DNA of 64,000 nucleotides from Pelotomaculum schinkii (lineage in GTDB: Bacteria > Bacillota > Desulfotomaculia > Desulfotomaculales > Pelotomaculaceae). The stretch lies in NCBI RefSeq assembly GCF_004369205.1, contig NZ_QFGA01000002.1, forward strand, positions 682,001-746,000, written 5' to 3'. Under the pieces are notes generated by a model that was given only the letters and a program-made list of their open reading frames with translations, did not search any database and was not told the DNA's origin. The translations under genes and the position numbers were made by a program. Positions 15,737-33,655 of the stretch are shown here, in pieces (position 1 is the stretch's first letter; every line of letters begins with the position of its first letter).

Positions 15737-15825
15737 GCCCGAGTGGCGGAACTGGCAGACGCACAGGACTTAAAATCCTGCGGGGATTAAACCCCGTACC
15801 GGTTCGATTCCGGTCTCGGGCACCA
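15737..15825 (+). tRNA. tRNA-Leu (UAA anticodon)
   Basis: Acceptor stem GCCCGAG/CTCGGGC, anticodon stem CAGGA/TCCTG with loop CTTAAAA (anticodon TAA), a long class II variable arm (CGGGG/CCCCG) and T-loop GGTTCGATTCC. The CCA end is encoded. Its 3' end is the likely attachment site of the adjoining integrase island. Confidence 0.97.
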
Positions 15826-15916: not shown

Positions 15917-17075
15917 TCACTTTTTAAAAAGAATATCATCTAATCTATCAGCGGCTTCCTTCTGTAAATTAGGTGCAATGTGGGAATACAGGTCCATAGT
16001 TATACTTATGTTGCTATGCCCTAGCCGTTCAGATACTACCTTTGGGTGTTCTCCTTGCTGCAGGAGGAAACTCGCGTGAGCATGCCGTAGTTGGTGAAAG
16101 GTTACTTTATAGCCTGCATTTTCGGTAGTCTCCTGAAACCTCTTTGTCACTGTGGCCGGAATAATAGGTCGCCCATCCTGCAAACAACAAACAATATCTT
16201 TGTCCTCGTGGCCCTCACCAAAAGCAAGCTTTTTCTTTTTCTGCTCTGTTTTATAGGCCTTTAGCGTTTTAACTACGTTTGGTGATATTGCAACCGACCG
16301 CTGGCTTGTTTTGTTCTTGGGCTCCTTAAAGAACACTCCTTCTTCTTTTGTAACGTAAAGGCCTCGCCTAATATGAATAATTCCTTTTTTAAGGTCAACG
16401 TCATTCCAGGTCAACCCCAGTATTTCAGCGCGCCGTGCTCCGGTTGTTACCGCCAGGAACACCGGCATATACATATAAATTCCTTTAAATAGGTCTATAA
16501 TTTTGTTGGCATCAGCTACCGGCAGGAATTTAATTTCATGCTTAACCTTCCGCGGGGGCTTTACCGCATCGGCAGGGTTACGGGGTATCATTTCCAATTC
16601 GAGGGCATGTTGTAGGGCTTCCCTTAACACTCTGTGGTGCTGGCTTACTGTCGTAGGGCTCAAACCAACGCCCAGGGCTTTCGTTTTGCCATCTTTCCGG
16701 CCACTCTCCAGGGCCTTATCGTAATAGTCCCTTATGTGCTTCGGCTTTAAGTCCTTTAATGGGATCATACCCAACTCCGGAATAAGGTGTTTTTCGATAA
16801 TCATTTTATGACCTTCATAGGTGGTGAGAGCAAGATTTTGCTTCCCGTAGGATTTTAACAGTTAGCCATTCCCGCAGCGTCATTTTAGCTGGTTCGCTAT
16901 AGGTTCCCTTATTAACATCGTTGATAGTTTCTGTTAACCAGTTGTCAGCTTCTTTTTTGCTCTTGAAGGTTTTCTTCTTAAGCTTTTCCTTGCCGGTCAC
17001 AGGATCCGGCACTCTCAGCATAGCACTATAGGTGTCACCGCGTTTACCTTCATTTTTAATAACTGTTCCTCGCAT
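15917..17075 (-). pseudogene. Tyrosine integrase, disrupted by a one-base frameshift
   Basis: Phage/ICE-type site-specific recombinase. The N-terminal arm-binding part (from ATG 17075, GGAGGG seven bases upstream) reads GTVIKNEGKRGDTYSA and ends after TLREWLTV. The core and catalytic part resumes in another frame with LTTYEGHKMIIEKHL. Removing one base from the four-T run at 16853-16856 (plus strand) joins the two into one protein of about 385 residues. Catalytic residues are visible: Arg in GARRAEILGL, HQLRHAHAS, GHSNI and Tyr in DLYSHI. It lies just after tRNA-Leu, the classic position. It could be a sequencing error, a pseudogene, or slippage-dependent. Confidence 0.85.
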
Positions 17076-17346
17076 AATAAACCCTCCTCGCATAAAAATA
17101 TGCGTACACACATGCCCCCGCTAAGGTAGCAGTAAAACCTTCACAACCTTTCAACCTTCACAAACCGTGCCGTTGCTGGATTTTTTACTGAAGGTTGCTT
17201 TCAATGAACCTTCACAGTGAAGGCTTACAACCGTCATTTTAATATTATTGGAGCGGGACATTGCCCGCCACGTTAAGGAAACATTTCCTTAACGTGAATA
17301 GCGTCTGCCCCTGCTTTTATTCACATCCAATAACCTGGCTAGAAAA

Positions 17347-18305: not shown

Positions 18306-18560
18306 ATGGAAATAAAATGTAATTTGAGTACTATTATGGGTTCAAGACGCTTAAAAATCGTGGACCTTCACAATCTAACGGGTATAGCCAGGGATACAAT
18401 AAGCTCCCTATATAATGAAAAGGCAAAAGGAATAACGTTTGAGGTAATGGCCAAACTTTGTGCTGCCCTTGACTGCCAGCCAGGAGACTTGTTTGAATAT
18501 ATTAAGGAGGAGGCTGCCACCGATGCCACGCAAGTTCAAAGTTATCCTTACCTGGGATAA
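18306..18560 (+). CDS. XRE-family helix-turn-helix regulator
   Basis: 84 residues, Cro/C1-type HTH (RRLKIVDLHNLTGIARDTI then LYNEKAKGITFEVMAKLCAAL), ending DLFEYIKEE, typical of small XRE regulators. The ATG at 18306 has AGGTGA nine bases upstream; the ATG at 18297 is too close to it. It overlaps the hicB start by 38 bases, so the three genes form one transcript and this protein may repress it. Confidence 0.82.
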   Translation: MEIKCNLSTIMGSRRLKIVDLHNLTGIARDTISSLYNEKAKGITFEVMAKLCAALDCQPGDLFEYIKEEAATDATQVQSYPYLG

Positions 18561-18750
18561 TGACGCTCAGGTCTATGTTGTAACCGTTCCCGCTTTACCG
18601 GGCTGTCTTACCCAAGGCAAGGACAGGGAGGAAGCGCTGGAGCGGGTCCAGGAAGCCATAACAGGCCATATTGAAGCTCTAAAGCTAATAGGACAGCCGA
18701 TCCCTCAGGGAGATGTTGAATTTGCTGAAGTGCAGGTCAGTGTTTCATGA
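18523..18750 (+). CDS. hicB: HicB-family antitoxin
   Basis: 75 residues with the HicB partial RNase H-like fold: KVILTWDNDAQVYVVTVP, then LPGCLTQGKDREEAL and a helix VQEAITGHIEALK. AAGGAGGAGG precedes ATG 18523. It should bind and neutralise HicA. There is no C-terminal DNA-binding domain, so DNA binding is probably supplied by the XRE protein just upstream. Confidence 0.85.
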   Translation: MPRKFKVILTWDNDAQVYVVTVPALPGCLTQGKDREEALERVQEAITGHIEALKLIGQPIPQGDVEFAEVQVSVS

Positions 18751-18971
18751 CTAGGATGCCCAGGGTTACCGGTAAGAAGGTTGTAACAGCCCTTAAAGGG
18801 GCTGGATTTATTGTGGTCAGAGTAAATGGAAGCCATCACCACTTATATAAGCCGGGTAGCAACCTGGTAACAGTACCTGTTCACGCCGGGGAGACCTTAA
18901 GCCCTATGCTTATCAAAAGCATTTTAGAGCAGGCGGGCCTCACCATTGAAGAATTCATAGAATTGTTATAA
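18747..18971 (+). CDS. hicA: HicA-family toxin (mRNA interferase)
   Basis: 74 residues, dsRBD-like HicA fold: VTGKKVVTALKGAGF, then GSHHHLYKPG carrying the catalytic His, and VPVHAGETLSPMLIKSIL. It cleaves mRNA in related systems. It overlaps hicB by 4 bases (ATGA). The order antitoxin then toxin is the reverse of the classic hicAB order. Confidence 0.88.
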   Translation: MTRMPRVTGKKVVTALKGAGFIVVRVNGSHHHLYKPGSNLVTVPVHAGETLSPMLIKSILEQAGLTIEEFIELL

Positions 18972-23371: not shown

Positions 23372-23417
23372 TTATAAAATAACAATAGCCAAGGGAAAAG
23401 GGACTCCCCTTGGCTAT
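23372..23417 (-). terminator. Terminator of the orphan RNA
   Basis: Stem ATAGCCAAGGG/CCCTTGGCTAT (23385-23395 and 23407-23417), then TGTTATTTTAT on the minus strand. Confidence 0.7.
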
Positions 23418-23772
23418 GCCCCACGCTTTTTTACCCCAACATACCCTGCAGACTCCTTTTGGGCTCAAAAGATGGTATCTTCTGAGTTATCCAAAAGGTT
23501 GGTCACTAAGGGTCCCTTCCCTAGTTTCTTGAGGTAGACTATTACTTTGGCTGCTGTGGCCCGGCCAAATCAACCCCCGTCGCTAACAGTCAGAGGGGCT
23601 TACTAACCTTCCCGGATTGGGTCCGTTTTACGCCCGTCGGCGGAGAGGGGGCGAGTTCTCTCAATGCGCCCTCTTTGGGTTAGCTAGTATTGCTTGTCCT
23701 CCCTTGAGGTACAGGGGGAATTCAAAAATTGGGCCAAAAAGACCAACTCCTATCTCCCCCAAAAGGGTTGTT
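23372..23772 (-). ncRNA. Orphan structured RNA, about 400 nt
   Basis: A complete transcription unit without a gene: promoter at 23779-23807, about 360 bases of dense secondary structure, then a terminator at 23385-23417. Helices visible by eye include 23603-23608/23678-23683 closing a junction with three hairpins (23613-23625, 23631-23642, 23644-23674), 23575-23578/23595-23598, 23546-23551/23564-23569, 23505-23512/23519-23525 and a coaxial pair 23455-23462/23491-23498 enclosing 23464-23473/23477-23486. At least two helices contain G-U pairs only if the minus strand is transcribed. It does not match the tmRNA, RNase P or 6S features I know. It lies just right of the IS21 element in the island. 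Confidence 0.7.
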
Positions 23773-23778
23773 AATACA

Positions 23779-23807
23779 ATTATATAAATTTATCCCAGCG
23801 TTTTCAA
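23779..23807 (-). promoter_or_regulatory. Promoter of the orphan RNA
   Basis: On the minus strand TTGAAA (23802-23807), 17-base spacer, TATAAT (23779-23784). Expected start near 23772. Confidence 0.75.
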
Positions 23808-24024: not shown

Positions 24025-24381
24025 TATAAAGTAGTCCTCTACCCTGCCGAAGAAGGCGGCTATGCCATCGAAATCCCGGAACTTCCCGTATGCATCAGCC
24101 AGGGGCAAACCTTGGAAGAGGCATATGAAATGATACAAGACGCGAAAAGAGGCTGGCTTGATATTGCCCTGCAAGATGGAGAAACAATCCCCGAGCCAAC
24201 CAGGGCGGAAGAATACTCTGGCAAGTTTAATATTCGTATGCCCAGGTCCCTCCACCGGACACTTGTCGAAAAAGCCAAAGAAGAAAACGTCAGCCTCAAT
24301 CAATATATTAACTACCAGCTTGCTCGCGGGGTTGGACATCCTTTCAACACTGTCAAAAGTAAAAATAATATAAAATCATAA
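24025..24381 (+). pseudogene. HicB antitoxin with CopG-like tail, start codon lost
   Basis: The frame reads YKVVLYPAEEGGYAIEIPEL, then VCISQGQTLEEAYEMIQDA and an Arc/CopG-like tail RMPRSLHRTLVEKAKEE with SLNQYINYQLARG. This is a near full-length HicB of the DNA-binding type. The expected first Met-Lys is missing: a TAA lies three codons before the first family residue and no start codon or ribosome site precedes it. Translation could begin only at an internal TTG (24112), losing half the domain. A terminator follows. Confidence 0.75.
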
Positions 24382-24399
24382 AAATAGATAAGACCTAGC

Positions 24400-24422
24400 A
24401 GGCACCTTTAAGGTGCCTTTTT
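24400..24422 (+). terminator. Terminator after the HicB relic
   Basis: Stem AGGCACC/GGTGCCT (24400-24406 and 24412-24418) followed by five T. Confidence 0.8.
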
Positions 24423-24425
24423 AAA

Positions 24426-24641
24426 AGCTACTCATCCAGAGAGATTATACAAATACTACTAAAAGACGGCTGGTACCATATCGAAACGATAGGCGACCAT
24501 CACCAGTTTAAGCACCCCACCAAAAAAGGCAAGGTGACGGTAACCCATCTCGTGAAAGACGTTCCCATCAAGACCGCAAAAAGTATATACAAGCGGGAAT
24601 TTCCATCAAGTAATTCTCACCTAATAATATTTGGAGGAGAA
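24426..24641 (+). pseudogene. HicA toxin relic without start or stop
   Basis: Frame: SSREIIQILLKDGWYHIETI, then GDHHQFKHPTKKGKVTV and VPIKTAKSIYK, a recognisable HicA with its catalytic His region. No start codon exists between the terminator at 24400-24422 and the first residues, and the frame has lost its own stop, running straight into the next hicB. A GTG at 24534 would give only the second half. Confidence 0.75.
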
Positions 24642-24644
24642 AAA

Positions 24645-25055
24645 ATGTTTAAAGACAGGTATGTTTATCCAGCAATCTTTGACTATGCCGATGACGGCAT
24701 ATCTATTGAGTTTCCGGACCTGCCAGGCTGCTTGCCTTGTGCTCAAGATACAGAAGAGGCTCTTAAAAATGCTAAAGAAGCGCTTGGCCTGCATCTCTAT
24801 GGAATGGAACGGGATAAAGATATGATCCCCGAGCCAACGCCGGTCAACAAACTAAAGGCTAAGAAAAACCAGGTAGTGGTTCTTGTTGAGATTTGGATGC
24901 CTACTATTAGAGATGCAATTGAGAATCGATCGGTTAAGAAAACTCTTACTATCCCCAAGTGGCTTAACGACCTGGCCGAGGAAAACAAAGTCAATTTCTC
25001 GCACGTTCTCCAGGATGCCTTAAAAAACCATCTCGGCGTTAAAGCTTATAAGTAA
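24645..25055 (+). CDS. HicB-family antitoxin with C-terminal DNA-binding tail
   Basis: 136 residues. GGAGGAG five bases before ATG 24645 decides the start over the longer frame. HicB domain: YVYPAIFDYADDGISIEFP, DLPGCLPCAQDTEEALKNA. The C-terminal part (KKTLTIPKWLNDLAEENKV, then HVLQDALKNHLGV) is a ribbon-helix-helix type tail for operator binding. The cognate HicA just upstream is decayed, so this antitoxin is now an orphan. Confidence 0.8.
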   Translation: MFKDRYVYPAIFDYADDGISIEFPDLPGCLPCAQDTEEALKNAKEALGLHLYGMERDKDMIPEPTPVNKLKAKKNQVVVLVEIWMPTIRDAIENRSVKKTLTIPKWLNDLAEENKVNFSHVLQDALKNHLGVKAYK

Positions 25056-27180: not shown

Positions 27181-27430
27181 ACCCTGCTCCTTCTTTTATA
27201 GAATCTTTTTCAGCATAGGGCGTAATATGAATAATCCATTGCTCCAATCCCCCCCACCTCCGGCAACAAAATAGCCGCCCGATAAGCGGTAAAACAAAAA
27301 ACACCCTCGGGTGAGAGTGCTTTATAATGACCTGTTAATTTTTTACCTAATTATTTCCTCTTATGTTATAATAATTTTACAACAGAAAGGCTCAGGGCGG
27401 TCGGCATTCCCTCCGGAAGGAGGTGGTGCC

Positions 27431-27514
27431 ATGGAAGTATATCAAACGTTAACACTAATGATCTCCTTTGGAGCATTGGTGGTTTTGATACTTTCTTTCC
27501 ATAATAGGAAATAG
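27431..27514 (+). CDS. Putative holin-like toxin, 27 aa
   Basis: ATG 27431 follows AAGGAGGTGG. The peptide starts MEVYQTLTLMISFGALVV and ends LSFHNRK: one membrane helix with a short charged tail. This matches the Hol_Tox / TxpA-BsrG-like group of type I toxins (VYQxLxLM start, SFG, hydrophobic core). A perfect TATAAT lies upstream near 27364. The stop codon is part of a 10-bp hairpin (AATAGACCGC with GCGGTCTATT). In type I systems an antisense RNA overlaps the toxin end; none is proven here. Confidence 0.7.
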   Translation: MEVYQTLTLMISFGALVVLILSFHNRK

Positions 27515-27586
27515 ACCGCCCCATCGCAAAGGTTAGCGGTCTATTCCGTCTACCTTAAAGCCGACCGCCCATAAAGCGGCTGTTGT

Positions 27587-27619
27587 GAGGAACCATGCTA
27601 CCAACATGGTTCCTCTTTT
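27587..27619 (+). terminator. Terminator downstream of the small toxin gene
   Basis: 11-bp perfect stem GAGGAACCATG/CATGGTTCCTC (27587-27597 and 27605-27615) followed by TTTT. Confidence 0.8.
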
Positions 27620-29800: not shown

Positions 29801-31429
29801 CTAATCAGCTTCACAGGAGTCTTTAAACCTGACAAAAAATTGCGTACCGTCAGGACTTGTCTTAAATTCAATCCTGGAATTATGACGTTCAGCAATGCTG
29901 TAACAAACAGCCAACCCTAGACCTGTGCCGGTTTCCTTTGTGGTATAAAACGGTGTTCCTATTTTTGGCAGTATATCATCCGGGATCCCTTTACCCTGAT
30001 CCTGAACTGCTAAAACAACTTCCCCCGCGTCCTGGTAAGTTTTTATCGTAATTGTACCCCGGTGTTCCATAGCCTCCATCCCGTTGCGCACAAGGTTAAA
30101 GATGATTTGCTTTATTTCTTTTTCATCAAGAGACATATCCGGAATTTCAGCCAGCTCGAAGACAACGTTATAGTCGCTTTTAGTAGCATCGGCTTGCAGT
30201 AAAGGAGCAATCGAACTAATAATACTATTAAGGTTATTCATCTTTTTTTCTATCGCCTTATTTTTAGCCAGAGATAAAAACTCGGTTATAATCGAATTAG
30301 CCCGATCCAGTTCATTCATCATCAGTGTGAAATATTCTTTGTCCGCAGAGTAAAGTTCTTTTTTCCCAAGCAGCTGTAAAAATCCCCTTACCGTTGTCAT
30401 TGGGTTCCTGACCTCGTGGCCTATTGCCGCAGCCATTTCACCCACCAGGTTTAATCTGTCCAAACGGGCCATCTCAAGTTGCAAGCCCTTCTTTTCTGTA
30501 ATATCTTCTGATATCTTAAGGAAATTGGTTGTCATACCATCGGCGTTTTTAAAAGCAGTAAAATAAGTATGCTCCCAGAATGAATCGGAGTTCTTTTTCT
30601 TGATAAGCAGTTCACCGCTCCATTCTTTCCCTTCCCGTACTTCTTCATATATCTGCTCATAAAATTCAGCGGGCTCACTTCCCAGGCGGCTTATATTTAA
30701 ACCGGTTATATCTTCACTTGCATATCCGGTAACCCGGGTAAACTGCGGATTGACAAATTCAATATTTCCATCTGTATCCGTTAATACAATTATCGCCGGG
30801 CTCTGTTCCACAATGCGGGATAATTTAAAGGTCTGTTCCTCCGCAAACTTACGCCTTTCAATTTCTCCCTGTAATTCGTCCAAATTTTCCTGCAGCCGCT
30901 TCCGGCTCTCCGCTTCAAGATTGGTGATGCTGCCGATAAACCAGCCCATCAAAAACATTACGCTGATGAGAATAAGATTTTGTTCAAATGCCTTTATAAC
31001 GGGTTCGTGATAGAACAACATGCTGCTCAACGTCAGGAAGGCGGAACCCAAAAAAGCAATGAACAGGCCGCCGTTTTTGCCCAGTACGGTGGCAGCCACA
31101 ATAACAGGCAGCAGTATTGCCACCTGTTTGCTGTATGGGTCGTGCGGGAATTGCAGCAAGACAAATGCGGTAACGAGAATGGGAAAAATAACATAAGCTA
31201 TTTTGATATATAGAATTTTCTTTTGATTTAACAATCTTTCCAAAAACTTATACAAAAAAGCTGCCACAACACCTATTGTTCCTGTAATAAGAGCAAAATA
31301 AAGATTTAAAATAGAGCTAAAGCTTTTGCCTAAAGAAAAGGAAATAAAAAAAATCAATATGCAGGCCATCTGAACCCCGATAATATATTCAAAAATTTCC
31401 CACTCCCTGGTTTTTTTGATATCCGTCAT
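29801..31429 (-). CDS. PAS-domain sensor histidine kinase of an Agr-like system
   Basis: 542 residues. Six hydrophobic segments fill the first 170 residues, then a short coiled coil, a PAS domain (about 205-315: IVLTDTDGNIEFVNPQFTRV), HisKA with the phospho-His in GHEVRNPMTTVRGF, and HATPase_c with NLVRNGMEAM, DQGKGIPDD and TGTGLGL. The layout is of the KinB/NtrB sporulation-kinase type and not the classic AgrC type. It follows agrD by about 60 bases, with a strong terminator between them, so its level may be set by read-through. No response regulator gene is nearby. Confidence 0.88.
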   Translation of the reverse strand: MTDIKKTREWEIFEYIIGVQMACILIFFISFSLGKSFSSILNLYFALITGTIGVVAAFLYKFLERLLNQKKILYIKIAYVIFPILVTAFVLLQFPHDPYSKQVAILLPVIVAATVLGKNGGLFIAFLGSAFLTLSSMLFYHEPVIKAFEQNLILISVMFLMGWFIGSITNLEAESRKRLQENLDELQGEIERRKFAEEQTFKLSRIVEQSPAIIVLTDTDGNIEFVNPQFTRVTGYASEDITGLNISRLGSEPAEFYEQIYEEVREGKEWSGELLIKKKNSDSFWEHTYFTAFKNADGMTTNFLKISEDITEKKGLQLEMARLDRLNLVGEMAAAIGHEVRNPMTTVRGFLQLLGKKELYSADKEYFTLMMNELDRANSIITEFLSLAKNKAIEKKMNNLNSIISSIAPLLQADATKSDYNVVFELAEIPDMSLDEKEIKQIIFNLVRNGMEAMEHRGTITIKTYQDAGEVVLAVQDQGKGIPDDILPKIGTPFYTTKETGTGLGLAVCYSIAERHNSRIEFKTSPDGTQFFVRFKDSCEAD

Positions 31430-31455
31430 GTAACTATTACCCCTTTAACAGATAT

Positions 31456-31489
31456 CATAAAAAGAGGTGGCTGCCCACCCCTTTTTATG
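31456..31489 (-). terminator. Terminator between agrD and the kinase gene
   Basis: 15-bp stem (31456-31470 with 31475-31489), one U-G pair in the minus-strand RNA, T-rich 3' arm. It would attenuate transcription into the kinase. Confidence 0.75.
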
Positions 31490-31491
31490 TA

Positions 31492-31623
31492 TTATTTTCT
31501 GAGAGATTCAGGGACTTCAGGCTGGTATTGGCCAAAACCACAAGCGCTGGCGGAAGCTATCCCGGCGAGGAATGTCATCACCGTTACCGCCAAAAGAAAC
31601 AGCTTATTAGCCAAACCCTTCAT
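31492..31623 (-). CDS. agrD: AgrD-type cyclic lactone autoinducer peptide precursor
   Basis: 43 residues. GGAGGTG precedes ATG 31623. Amphipathic leader (MKGLANKLFLLAVTVMTFLA), a short core with one Cys (ASACGFGQYQ) and the acidic recognition tail PEVPESLRK. This is the AgrD pattern of Clostridia: AgrB cuts after the core and the Cys forms a thiolactone ring. The ring size cannot be fixed, but Cys-Gly-Phe-Gly-Tyr/Gln lies in the right place. Start overlaps the agrB end by 17 bases. Confidence 0.88.
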   Translation of the reverse strand: MKGLANKLFLLAVTVMTFLAGIASASACGFGQYQPEVPESLRK

Positions 31624-32272
31624 TTTTTTCACCTCCTTGTCTCAAAATAAAGGTGCGGTCAATAAAATTCATCAATTGATGTCCAGGCCCGGTCAACATA
31701 AAACTGACCCAGATGAGACAAAAAGCGAGGCTTGCCTGTACCACTTTGGCGTGTTCCCAGACACTGTCGCGCAATATGATCGTGATTGCTGCAGCCAGCA
31801 AAAAAACCAACAGGGAGTATATTTTAAGTTTTTTCCGTCTGACCGGTGAAACAATCGGCGCGGCGGGGTTGTCAACCGGAGCTAATTTAATGATCGCGGT
31901 AAAACCTATTAATAATGCAAGTAAAGCGATGATATCAAGACCAATTTGACTGTATTTGGGAAAAAACATAGCGCCCAAAGACATTAAGGTAGTCGACAAT
32001 ATTGTAATGAAAGCGCACCGCCAGGGAGAGTCGGAGTGCGCGCCGCCGGCGGTGTGCCGGAATAAAAATAAAGTGGCCAGGATGGCAATAGTGGCCGGTA
32101 AAATCCCCAGCAAAAAGCCGATCAGCAATATAGCGGAGAGGTTTAGCGAGTTGATGATGATGATGTCGGTGGCATAGGCCAGGACCATTTCTTTTTCCTG
32201 GGAAGCGCCGGTTTTCGCGCGCAAGTAGCTTGCCAAGCGCCTGCTGACGGCCATGTAACTCATACTCTCCAC
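31607..32272 (-). CDS. agrB: AgrB-like peptide-processing membrane endopeptidase
   Basis: 221 residues with about five to six membrane helices. Catalytic His79 and Cys86 lie in RHTAGGAHSDSPWRCAF, the AgrB signature. It processes AgrD into the autoinducing peptide and helps export it. Start GTG 32272 (GGGAGGG upstream) or ATG 32263, which overlaps the TGA of the previous gene. Confidence 0.92.
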   Translation of the reverse strand: MESMSYMAVSRRLASYLRAKTGASQEKEMVLAYATDIIIINSLNLSAILLIGFLLGILPATIAILATLFLFRHTAGGAHSDSPWRCAFITILSTTLMSLGAMFFPKYSQIGLDIIALLALLIGFTAIIKLAPVDNPAAPIVSPVRRKKLKIYSLLVFLLAAAITIILRDSVWEHAKVVQASLAFCLIWVSFMLTGPGHQLMNFIDRTFILRQGGEKNEGFG

Positions 32273-33382: not shown

Positions 33383-33536
33383 ATATCCCGCGAAAAAACC
33401 GTCTCAAATGGCGGGCCTAAGTTTACTACAGTCGGTCAGAACCAAAACAAGGGCGGTAGAAGGTAAAAGTTTACAGCATAAATGTTTTGACAGAATAAAG
33501 GTTTTATTCAATATGCATAGAATTTACTTTTTGTTA

Positions 33537-33628
33537 CTCCGAGTCCGGAGACCTAAGGTATGAAGCGCTATGGTCCCGGACCGATAGGGTTTGCTTGGAA
33601 ACGGGCAAGCCTCCCGTGTGGAAAGGAG
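33537..33628 (+). ncRNA. Riboswitch-like structured leader of the aldehyde dehydrogenase gene
   Basis: CTCC/GGAG (33537-33540, 33625-33628) closes a junction of two arms. Arm 1: GTCCGG/CCGGAC (33543-33548, 33576-33581) leading to an exact 11-nt tetraloop receptor, CCTAAG (33552-33557) with TATGG (33569-33573). Arm 2: ten pairs, 33588-33597 with 33602-33611, capped by a GAAA tetraloop (33598-33601). A GAAA loop and its receptor facing each other is a riboswitch-style tertiary contact. A terminator follows at 33656. It could be a Moco/tungsten-cofactor-type RNA, but I cannot confirm the class. Confidence 0.6.
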
Positions 33629-33655
33629 CATGTTTTTTTTGCTATGCTTTTTTAC

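Follow-up and report, generated by a model that had tools for sequence, protein, structure and literature searches.

A FuFi-1 RNA gene in a decayed phage-like island of Pelotomaculum schinkii: a 5' domain beyond the Rfam model, a predicted micro-ORF and a covarying kissing loop

The phage lambda OOP RNA has a promoter and a terminator of its own and is located in the cII/replication region, opposite to the lytic operon; it is short and overlaps cII (PMC5869508). GOLLD and ROOL, RNAs of phages and prophages whose function is unknown, form kissing loops, which are partly intermolecular (PMC12286853). Small RNAs coding for peptides have been described as common (PMC5521070). In the case of FuFi-1 (RF02986), only the catalogue entry was found in the literature and no function. 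The Rfam model of FuFi-1 consists of 175 positions, starts at stem 1 and covers the 3' half of the RNA only.

The window, the whole stretch of 64,000 nucleotides of P. schinkii DNA analysed here, was scanned with Rfam 15. The scan resulted in a complete match (model 1-175) to FuFi-1 at 23383-23590(-) with 71.8 bits, the gathering cut-off for RF02986 being 59.6 bits. The features determined at the locus are the following, in the direction of transcription.

23802..23807, minus strand: -35 box TTGAAA (promoter scan; a similar promoter layout lies 5' of nearly all homologues)
23779..23784, minus strand: -10 box TATAAT, 17 bp from the -35 box (promoter scan)
23383..23771, minus strand: predicted complete RNA of about 388 nt, from promoter to terminator (Rfam, folding, promoter/terminator scan, 5'-domain model)
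23708..23768, minus strand: 5' domain (model R1 built from 27 other members with the window left out, 30.8 bits)
23763..23770, minus strand: P0 5' strand CAACCCUU at the RNA 5' end, pairing with 23578-23571 and pseudoknotted with P3
23754..23760, minus strand: P1 5' strand GGGGGAG, pairing with 23720-23714
23747..23751, minus strand: putative Shine-Dalgarno (SD) sequence AGGAG, the strongest anti-SD match of the RNA (-12.0 kcal/mol against a mean of -3.7 elsewhere)
23684..23737, minus strand: micro-ORF MAQFLNSPCTSREDKQY, UUG start at 23737, 17 codons plus stop
23714..23720, minus strand: P1 3' strand UUCCCCC, within the micro-ORF
23599..23687, minus strand: insert domain, helix 23687-23678:23608-23599 enclosing three hairpins (predicted fold)
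23571..23578, minus strand: P0 3' strand GGGGGUUG, within the internal loop of FuFi-1 stem 1
23383..23590, minus strand: Rfam FuFi-1 match, model 1-175 complete
23549..23566, minus strand: P4 hairpin, equivalent of the family's GCAGAACCaaAACUGC (Rfam alignment)
23505..23525, minus strand: P6 hairpin ACUAGGG-AAGGGAC-CCUUAGU, its 7-nt loop 23518-23512 being the kissing partner L6
23455..23498, minus strand: P7, a two-part long helix whose size varies across the family (Rfam alignment and predicted fold)
23385..23417, minus strand: terminator hairpin of 14 pairs with a T-rich tail; its loop segment 23404-23398, GUCCCUU, is the kissing partner L8

The promoter TTGAAA-17-TATAAT at 23807..23779 (-) matched the consensus at 11 of 12 positions and was the top promoter-like site within the 2.9 kb scanned. 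The -10 box of the family lies a few nucleotides 5' of the P0 5' strand, and the RNA start is expected close to 23771 on the minus strand. The folding energy of the minus strand of the 401 nt 23372-23772 was determined to be -154.1 kcal/mol (z -3.92, equalled by none of the shuffles), whereas the plus strand folded less well (z -2.05). Better support than the folding statistics was provided by the compensatory changes through which the helices are kept in the 39 family members. The locus is a genuine minus-strand RNA gene with its own promoter and terminator. An earlier note, made from the letters of the sequence, had described a stand-alone structured minus-strand RNA in a mobile island with this promoter, a terminator and dense minus-strand pairing, and this description was borne out by the promoter match, the 14-pair stem at 23417..23385 (-) with its T-rich tail, and the strand difference in z together with the compensatory changes. 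The three-hairpin junction and the stacked pair at 23455-23498, which it had drawn, were also present in the predicted fold. At the position of the window insert domain, 23599..23687 (-), most family members carry a variable insert. The note was likewise right that the RNA is not tmRNA, RNase P or 6S: none of these had an Rfam match at the locus, where FuFi-1 alone reached the gathering score, and the tRNA-like domain and tag that mark a tmRNA were absent.

The assignment of the RNA as an orphan, possibly of a new family, did not hold, as the Rfam search which the same note had proposed yielded a strong match to a known RNA, the outcome named there as speaking against the proposal. The suggested distant membership in a class of large ornate RNAs had to be abandoned as well: ROOL, GOLLD and other ornate RNAs gave no Rfam match at the locus, even at E up to 10. 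According to the Rfam alignment, stem 1, P4, the P5-P7 junction and the terminator follow in the window in the FuFi-1 order, and the P4 loop sequence GAACCAAAAC of the family has diverged. The window FuFi-1 is the sole copy in the 4.4-Mb genome. Among 398 genomes of the phylum, FuFi-1 was detected in one further genome, L003 (Peptococcaceae), with 88.3 bits, where it adjoins Bro-N and Rha antirepressors. The window RNA has relatives in FuFi-1 and L003 and is therefore not an orphan; the locus adds a new member to FuFi-1, a bacterial RNA family already in the catalogue, and does not represent a new family. The remaining sub-threshold Rfam matches in the window, including rli52 and miRNA, were regarded as chance scores, and the signal for RF02986 in the B. 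subtilis control was below the cut-off and disappeared with stricter filters.

Blastn with the window RNA against 100 related genomes, phages and plasmids resulted in the self-match only, and blastn with two relatives against phages and plasmids in zero matches, because the sequence of FuFi-1 diverges too fast. Extra members were obtained by running patterns derived from the FuFi-1 core and its upstream region on viral and bacterial contigs. Eleven loci of the first pattern lacked the FuFi-1 core and were dropped as chance matches. After the removal of chance matches and duplicates, the comparison set consisted of 39 full-length sequences including the window. The check for homologues and covariation envisaged in the note came out negative by blastn and positive with the pattern-found relatives, in which P0, P1 and the kissing loop covary. 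Of the members scanned with Rfam, all scored above the FuFi-1 cut-off apart from those of a second subgroup (L005, L023, L024, L035, L037, L039). Five of these six were scored, at about 46-52 bits with the FuFi-1 model, and L005 falls below the cut-off; the architecture is common to all six.

A 5' domain between the promoter and the FuFi-1 start, missing from the Rfam model, was present in all 39 full-length members, and the predicted full FuFi-1 RNA is roughly twice the catalogued length. In the window, this domain (also given as 23708-23771 (-)) lies upstream of the Rfam-covered part. The match of model R1 at 23768-23708(-), 30.8 bits, compares with 16.6 bits for the runner-up in the window, and is the highest in the entire genome. 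The 5'-domain pattern GACCAAACTTTTGANTTTGCC had 10 matches in 2.9 million viral contigs; by inspection all 10 had the FuFi-1 core downstream, and those scanned with Rfam exceeded the cut-off. Over 348 genomes of one family, R1 had six strong matches, exactly the six with FuFi-1 above the cut-off; all six belong to the training set of R1, and therefore exclusivity and not independent discovery is shown. A 32-bit R1 match in L114 was rejected, as it resembles an ordinary mRNA start and the FuFi-1 match was absent. A natural 5' truncation was observed in L011 / L031, where the 5' domain with the SD and start is deleted and the -10 box abuts the ORF remnant.

The helices P0 and P1, which are not included in the Rfam model, and the kissing loop were studied with a swap test, in which each member's strand was paired with its own partner and with partners from other members. 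P0 was found to covary across the family with z=6.2 and P1 with z=4.8 (0 of 2000 permutations in both cases), compared to z -0.3 for the control segment. The strongest signal of those tested was that of the kissing loop, z=11.8 with 0 of 5000 permutations, whereas the four control segments resulted in z of -0.5 to 0.7. The terminator loop is complementary to the P6 loop over 5-10 bases in 37 of 38 members, L047 being the sole member without this complementarity. In the window, AAGGGAC (23518-23512), carried on a 7-bp stem, is fully complementary to GUCCCUU (23404-23398). Changes on both sides were detected at 7 of 7 pairs of the kissing helix in the 18-member alignment, with 95.2% of cells paired, and the entire structure had 138 double-changed cells against 41.8 in shuffles. 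A covariance model is unable to express a kissing loop. The window copy keeps the 5' domain, P0, P1 and the kissing loop, that is, the extended features of FuFi-1. Two further pairings were rejected: a pseudoknot of the SD with the GCUCC segment of the ORF is conserved yet did not covary (z -0.4), and neither did the ORF start and the conserved segment GGGUAAACAAAUUUGG as pairing partners (z -0.3).

The 5' domain contains a micro-ORF whose start and frame are conserved family-wide, in disagreement with the earlier statement that there is no reading frame inside. The purine-rich SD was the best anti-SD site in 37 of 39 members; the mean duplex energy in the family was -14.3 kcal/mol, against -2.5 kcal/mol elsewhere in the same RNAs. 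The start is at the shared codon in 35 of 39 members (UUG in 31, AUG in 4). In the remaining four, the start codon is lost and an in-frame AUG lies one or three codons upstream; in two of these (L028, L033) the displaced start is poorly spaced from the SD. The window MAQFLNSPCTSREDKQY is homologous to the family consensus MTKLLNLP(A/V)PLI, the commonest peptide type, of which the micro-ORF stops after about 12 codons. In the second subgroup the micro-ORF is longer by whole codons ahead of the P-x-P motif, and this motif is mostly retained where P1 was not seen. L038 and L005 deviate from the LPxP motif. The in-frame BLOSUM value was 0.71, compared to -0.19 and 0.01 in the other frames, although it did not exceed the column-shuffle control. 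The synonymous-change test for peptide selection was not significant compared with column-shuffled controls, therefore the nucleotides of the ORF could be conserved for the RNA structure. Because of the SD energy and the conserved start and frame, translation is regarded as likely: the conserved SD would bind ribosomes, and an ORF of roughly 12 codons is probably translated. Its product is perhaps a functional micropeptide. The micro-ORF is a warning against labelling such RNAs non-coding.

The window RNA lies in an island with a split integrase, HTH_17 and Cro/C1-like genes, HicBA, HicB relics, IS21 and an adjoining tRNA-Leu; this island is a decayed prophage or similar phage-like element. 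The integrase, HTH_17 and Cro/C1 HTH_26 genes are 5-8 kb from FuFi-1, and IS21 is inserted between. The tyrosine integrase, 15917-17111 (-), is split in two frames, the catalytic part being apart from the Arm domain, and adjoins tRNA-Leu 15737-15825, a sign of a decayed integrated element. A repeat of the tRNA end that would bound the island was not found in the window; its sole further genomic copy lies some 480 kb off. At 24112-25055 (+), two ORFs code for HicB-type antitoxins and no HicA gene adjoins them, and HicB and HicA occur as a complete pair at 18460-18971. About 4 kb from the FuFi-1 gene, 27379-27612 (+) contains a unit that resembles type I toxin-antitoxin systems; it had an Rfam BsrG match of 73.4 bits over a 27-aa peptide, MEVYQTLTLMISFGALVVLILSFHNRK, matching Pfam Hol_Tox. 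Elsewhere in the window, a PAS histidine kinase beside an AgrB-family protein, 29801-32272 (-), resembles an agr-type peptide signalling pair, and a molybdenum/tungsten cofactor riboswitch was detected at 33525-33644 (+) with 66.2 bits.

In the relatives, a Cro/CI-type HTH gene was found at most 2.2 kb downstream of FuFi-1 in 28 of 36 loci, at a distance from the RNA of about 0.1 to more than 1 kb. The downstream HTH genes were co-directional in 30 cases and opposed in 11. The nearest one is directed at the RNA in 9 of the 28 loci, therefore the layout is not uniform. Integrases and S24 and M78 proteins are also encoded downstream. On the upstream side, replication loaders, Bro-N/KilAC antirepressors and the like were present; the genes there are mostly oppositely oriented (49 of the 71 ORFs that reach 100 aa), and all 12 upstream HTH genes are divergent. 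In three members of the second subgroup (L005, L037, L039) the RNA is located between a divergent pair of HTH genes. FuFi-1 of the relatives is located in prophages, in the lysogeny control region of temperate phages, upstream of a CI-type repressor gene and mostly on the same strand. In the window, the repressor is gone or displaced by IS21 and the HicB/HicA genes, and a cis role may therefore be lost there.

FuFi-1 is most likely a regulatory RNA of the phage lysogeny region. We lean towards reading the window locus as a FuFi-1 gene remaining in a prophage or phage-like island that has decayed, and coding for an autonomous, fold-closed regulatory RNA of lysogeny control. The mechanism that we infer is as follows. 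The housekeeping promoter would drive expression in the lysogen; P0, which joins the 5' end of the RNA to the core, and the kissing loop, which ties the terminator hairpin to P6, would hold the RNA as a closed, long-lived fold, and the closed RNA would regulate the lysis-lysogeny module. That expression from its own promoter in the lysogen, the closed long-lived fold and the regulatory action all apply is plausible, if somewhat short of probable. Translation of the micro-ORF may switch the 5' domain between open and closed, or the encoded peptide may participate; ribosome loading could be an input or an output because the codons of the micro-ORF form one strand of P1. The complementary L6 and L8 loops could also join two copies of the RNA into a homodimer. 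A more far-reaching proposal, which we consider doubtful, is that FuFi-1 represents a new class of dual-function switch RNAs setting the lysis-lysogeny decision in temperate phages of Firmicutes, with a conserved micropeptide or ribosome-loading ORF inside a self-locking fold, the terminator hairpin of which makes kissing contact with an internal hairpin.

The same data were weighed against other explanations. The leader-peptide-like ORF and the terminator, which in most loci precede a CI-type gene of the same direction, together with the overlap of P1 by the micro-ORF, would suit a leader that acts in cis and attenuates the lysogeny (repressor) transcript: translation of the leader peptide would decide between the terminator braced by the kissing loop and read-through into CI, like an establishment-type transcript. 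This is unlikely: the distance to the repressor varies as given above, in 9 of 28 loci the first HTH gene has the opposite direction, a competing anti-terminator helix was not seen, and the window copy retains all interactions despite IS21 after its terminator. FuFi-1 might instead be chiefly a tiny mRNA whose active product is the peptide of roughly 12 aa, in the role of an antirepressor, a signal or a membrane peptide, with the 3' structure stabilising or controlling the mRNA. The start and frame, retained by all 39 members, and the in-frame extension of the second-subgroup ORF with P-x-P mostly surviving where P1 was not seen, are consistent with that role, which we nevertheless hold to be quite unlikely given the non-significant column-shuffle test and the compensation that keeps most pairs of the 300-nt remainder, beyond the need of an mRNA stabiliser; to our knowledge, moreover, no known peptide is homologous to the product.

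An antisense RNA of the lytic operon, positioned like lambda OOP and pairing over its full length with the early transcript of the opposite strand, would account for the opposite orientation of most upstream genes and all upstream HTH genes and for the replication or antirepressor genes on that side. Plain antisense action, however, requires neither an elaborate conserved fold nor an ORF, and in some second-subgroup members the RNA is flanked by divergent repressor genes, outside any operon, which makes this explanation very unlikely. Compatible with any function in the relatives is the somewhat unlikely case that the window copy is a dead relic, unexpressed in a degraded element. The integrase split in two frames, the IS21 alongside, the second att site that was not found and the single diverged copy of 71.8 bits point in this direction, whereas the near-consensus promoter and the intact P0, P1, P6, 7-bp kissing pair and terminator argue against it. 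A regulatory RNA of lysogeny control continues to be our preferred reading. With the full transcript, the kissing loop, the micro-ORF and the location at the repressor end, an unexplained motif becomes a testable phage regulator.

In comparison with the catalogued FuFi-1, the window RNA shares the order of stem 1, junction, P6/P7 and terminator in a complete match above the cut-off, and the 39 full-length members, the window among them, differ from the RF02986 model in the extra 5' domain with P0, P1, the SD and the micro-ORF. RF02986 lacks the 5' domain, P0 and the micro-ORF; the full transcript, the kissing loop, the micro-ORF and the location at the repressor end together provide an improved search model. 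The phage-switch location is undescribed as far as our search extended; the original description of FuFi-1 lay outside it and may mention the location or a pseudoknot. FuFi-1 resembles OOP in its own promoter and terminator and in its position, and no homology is claimed; in contrast to the short OOP, it is 300-400 nt long, highly structured and ORF-bearing. Dual-function sRNAs and FuFi-1 are both structured RNAs with an SD and a short ORF near the 5' end, and the window copy has such an ORF with an SD and a conserved start and frame. The FuFi-1 ORF of about 12 codons is very short, unlike those of other dual-function sRNAs, and we know of no sequence shared between them. GOLLD and ROOL are often located close to tRNA islands and not to a repressor; with both of them FuFi-1 shares its phage linkage and a covarying kissing loop.
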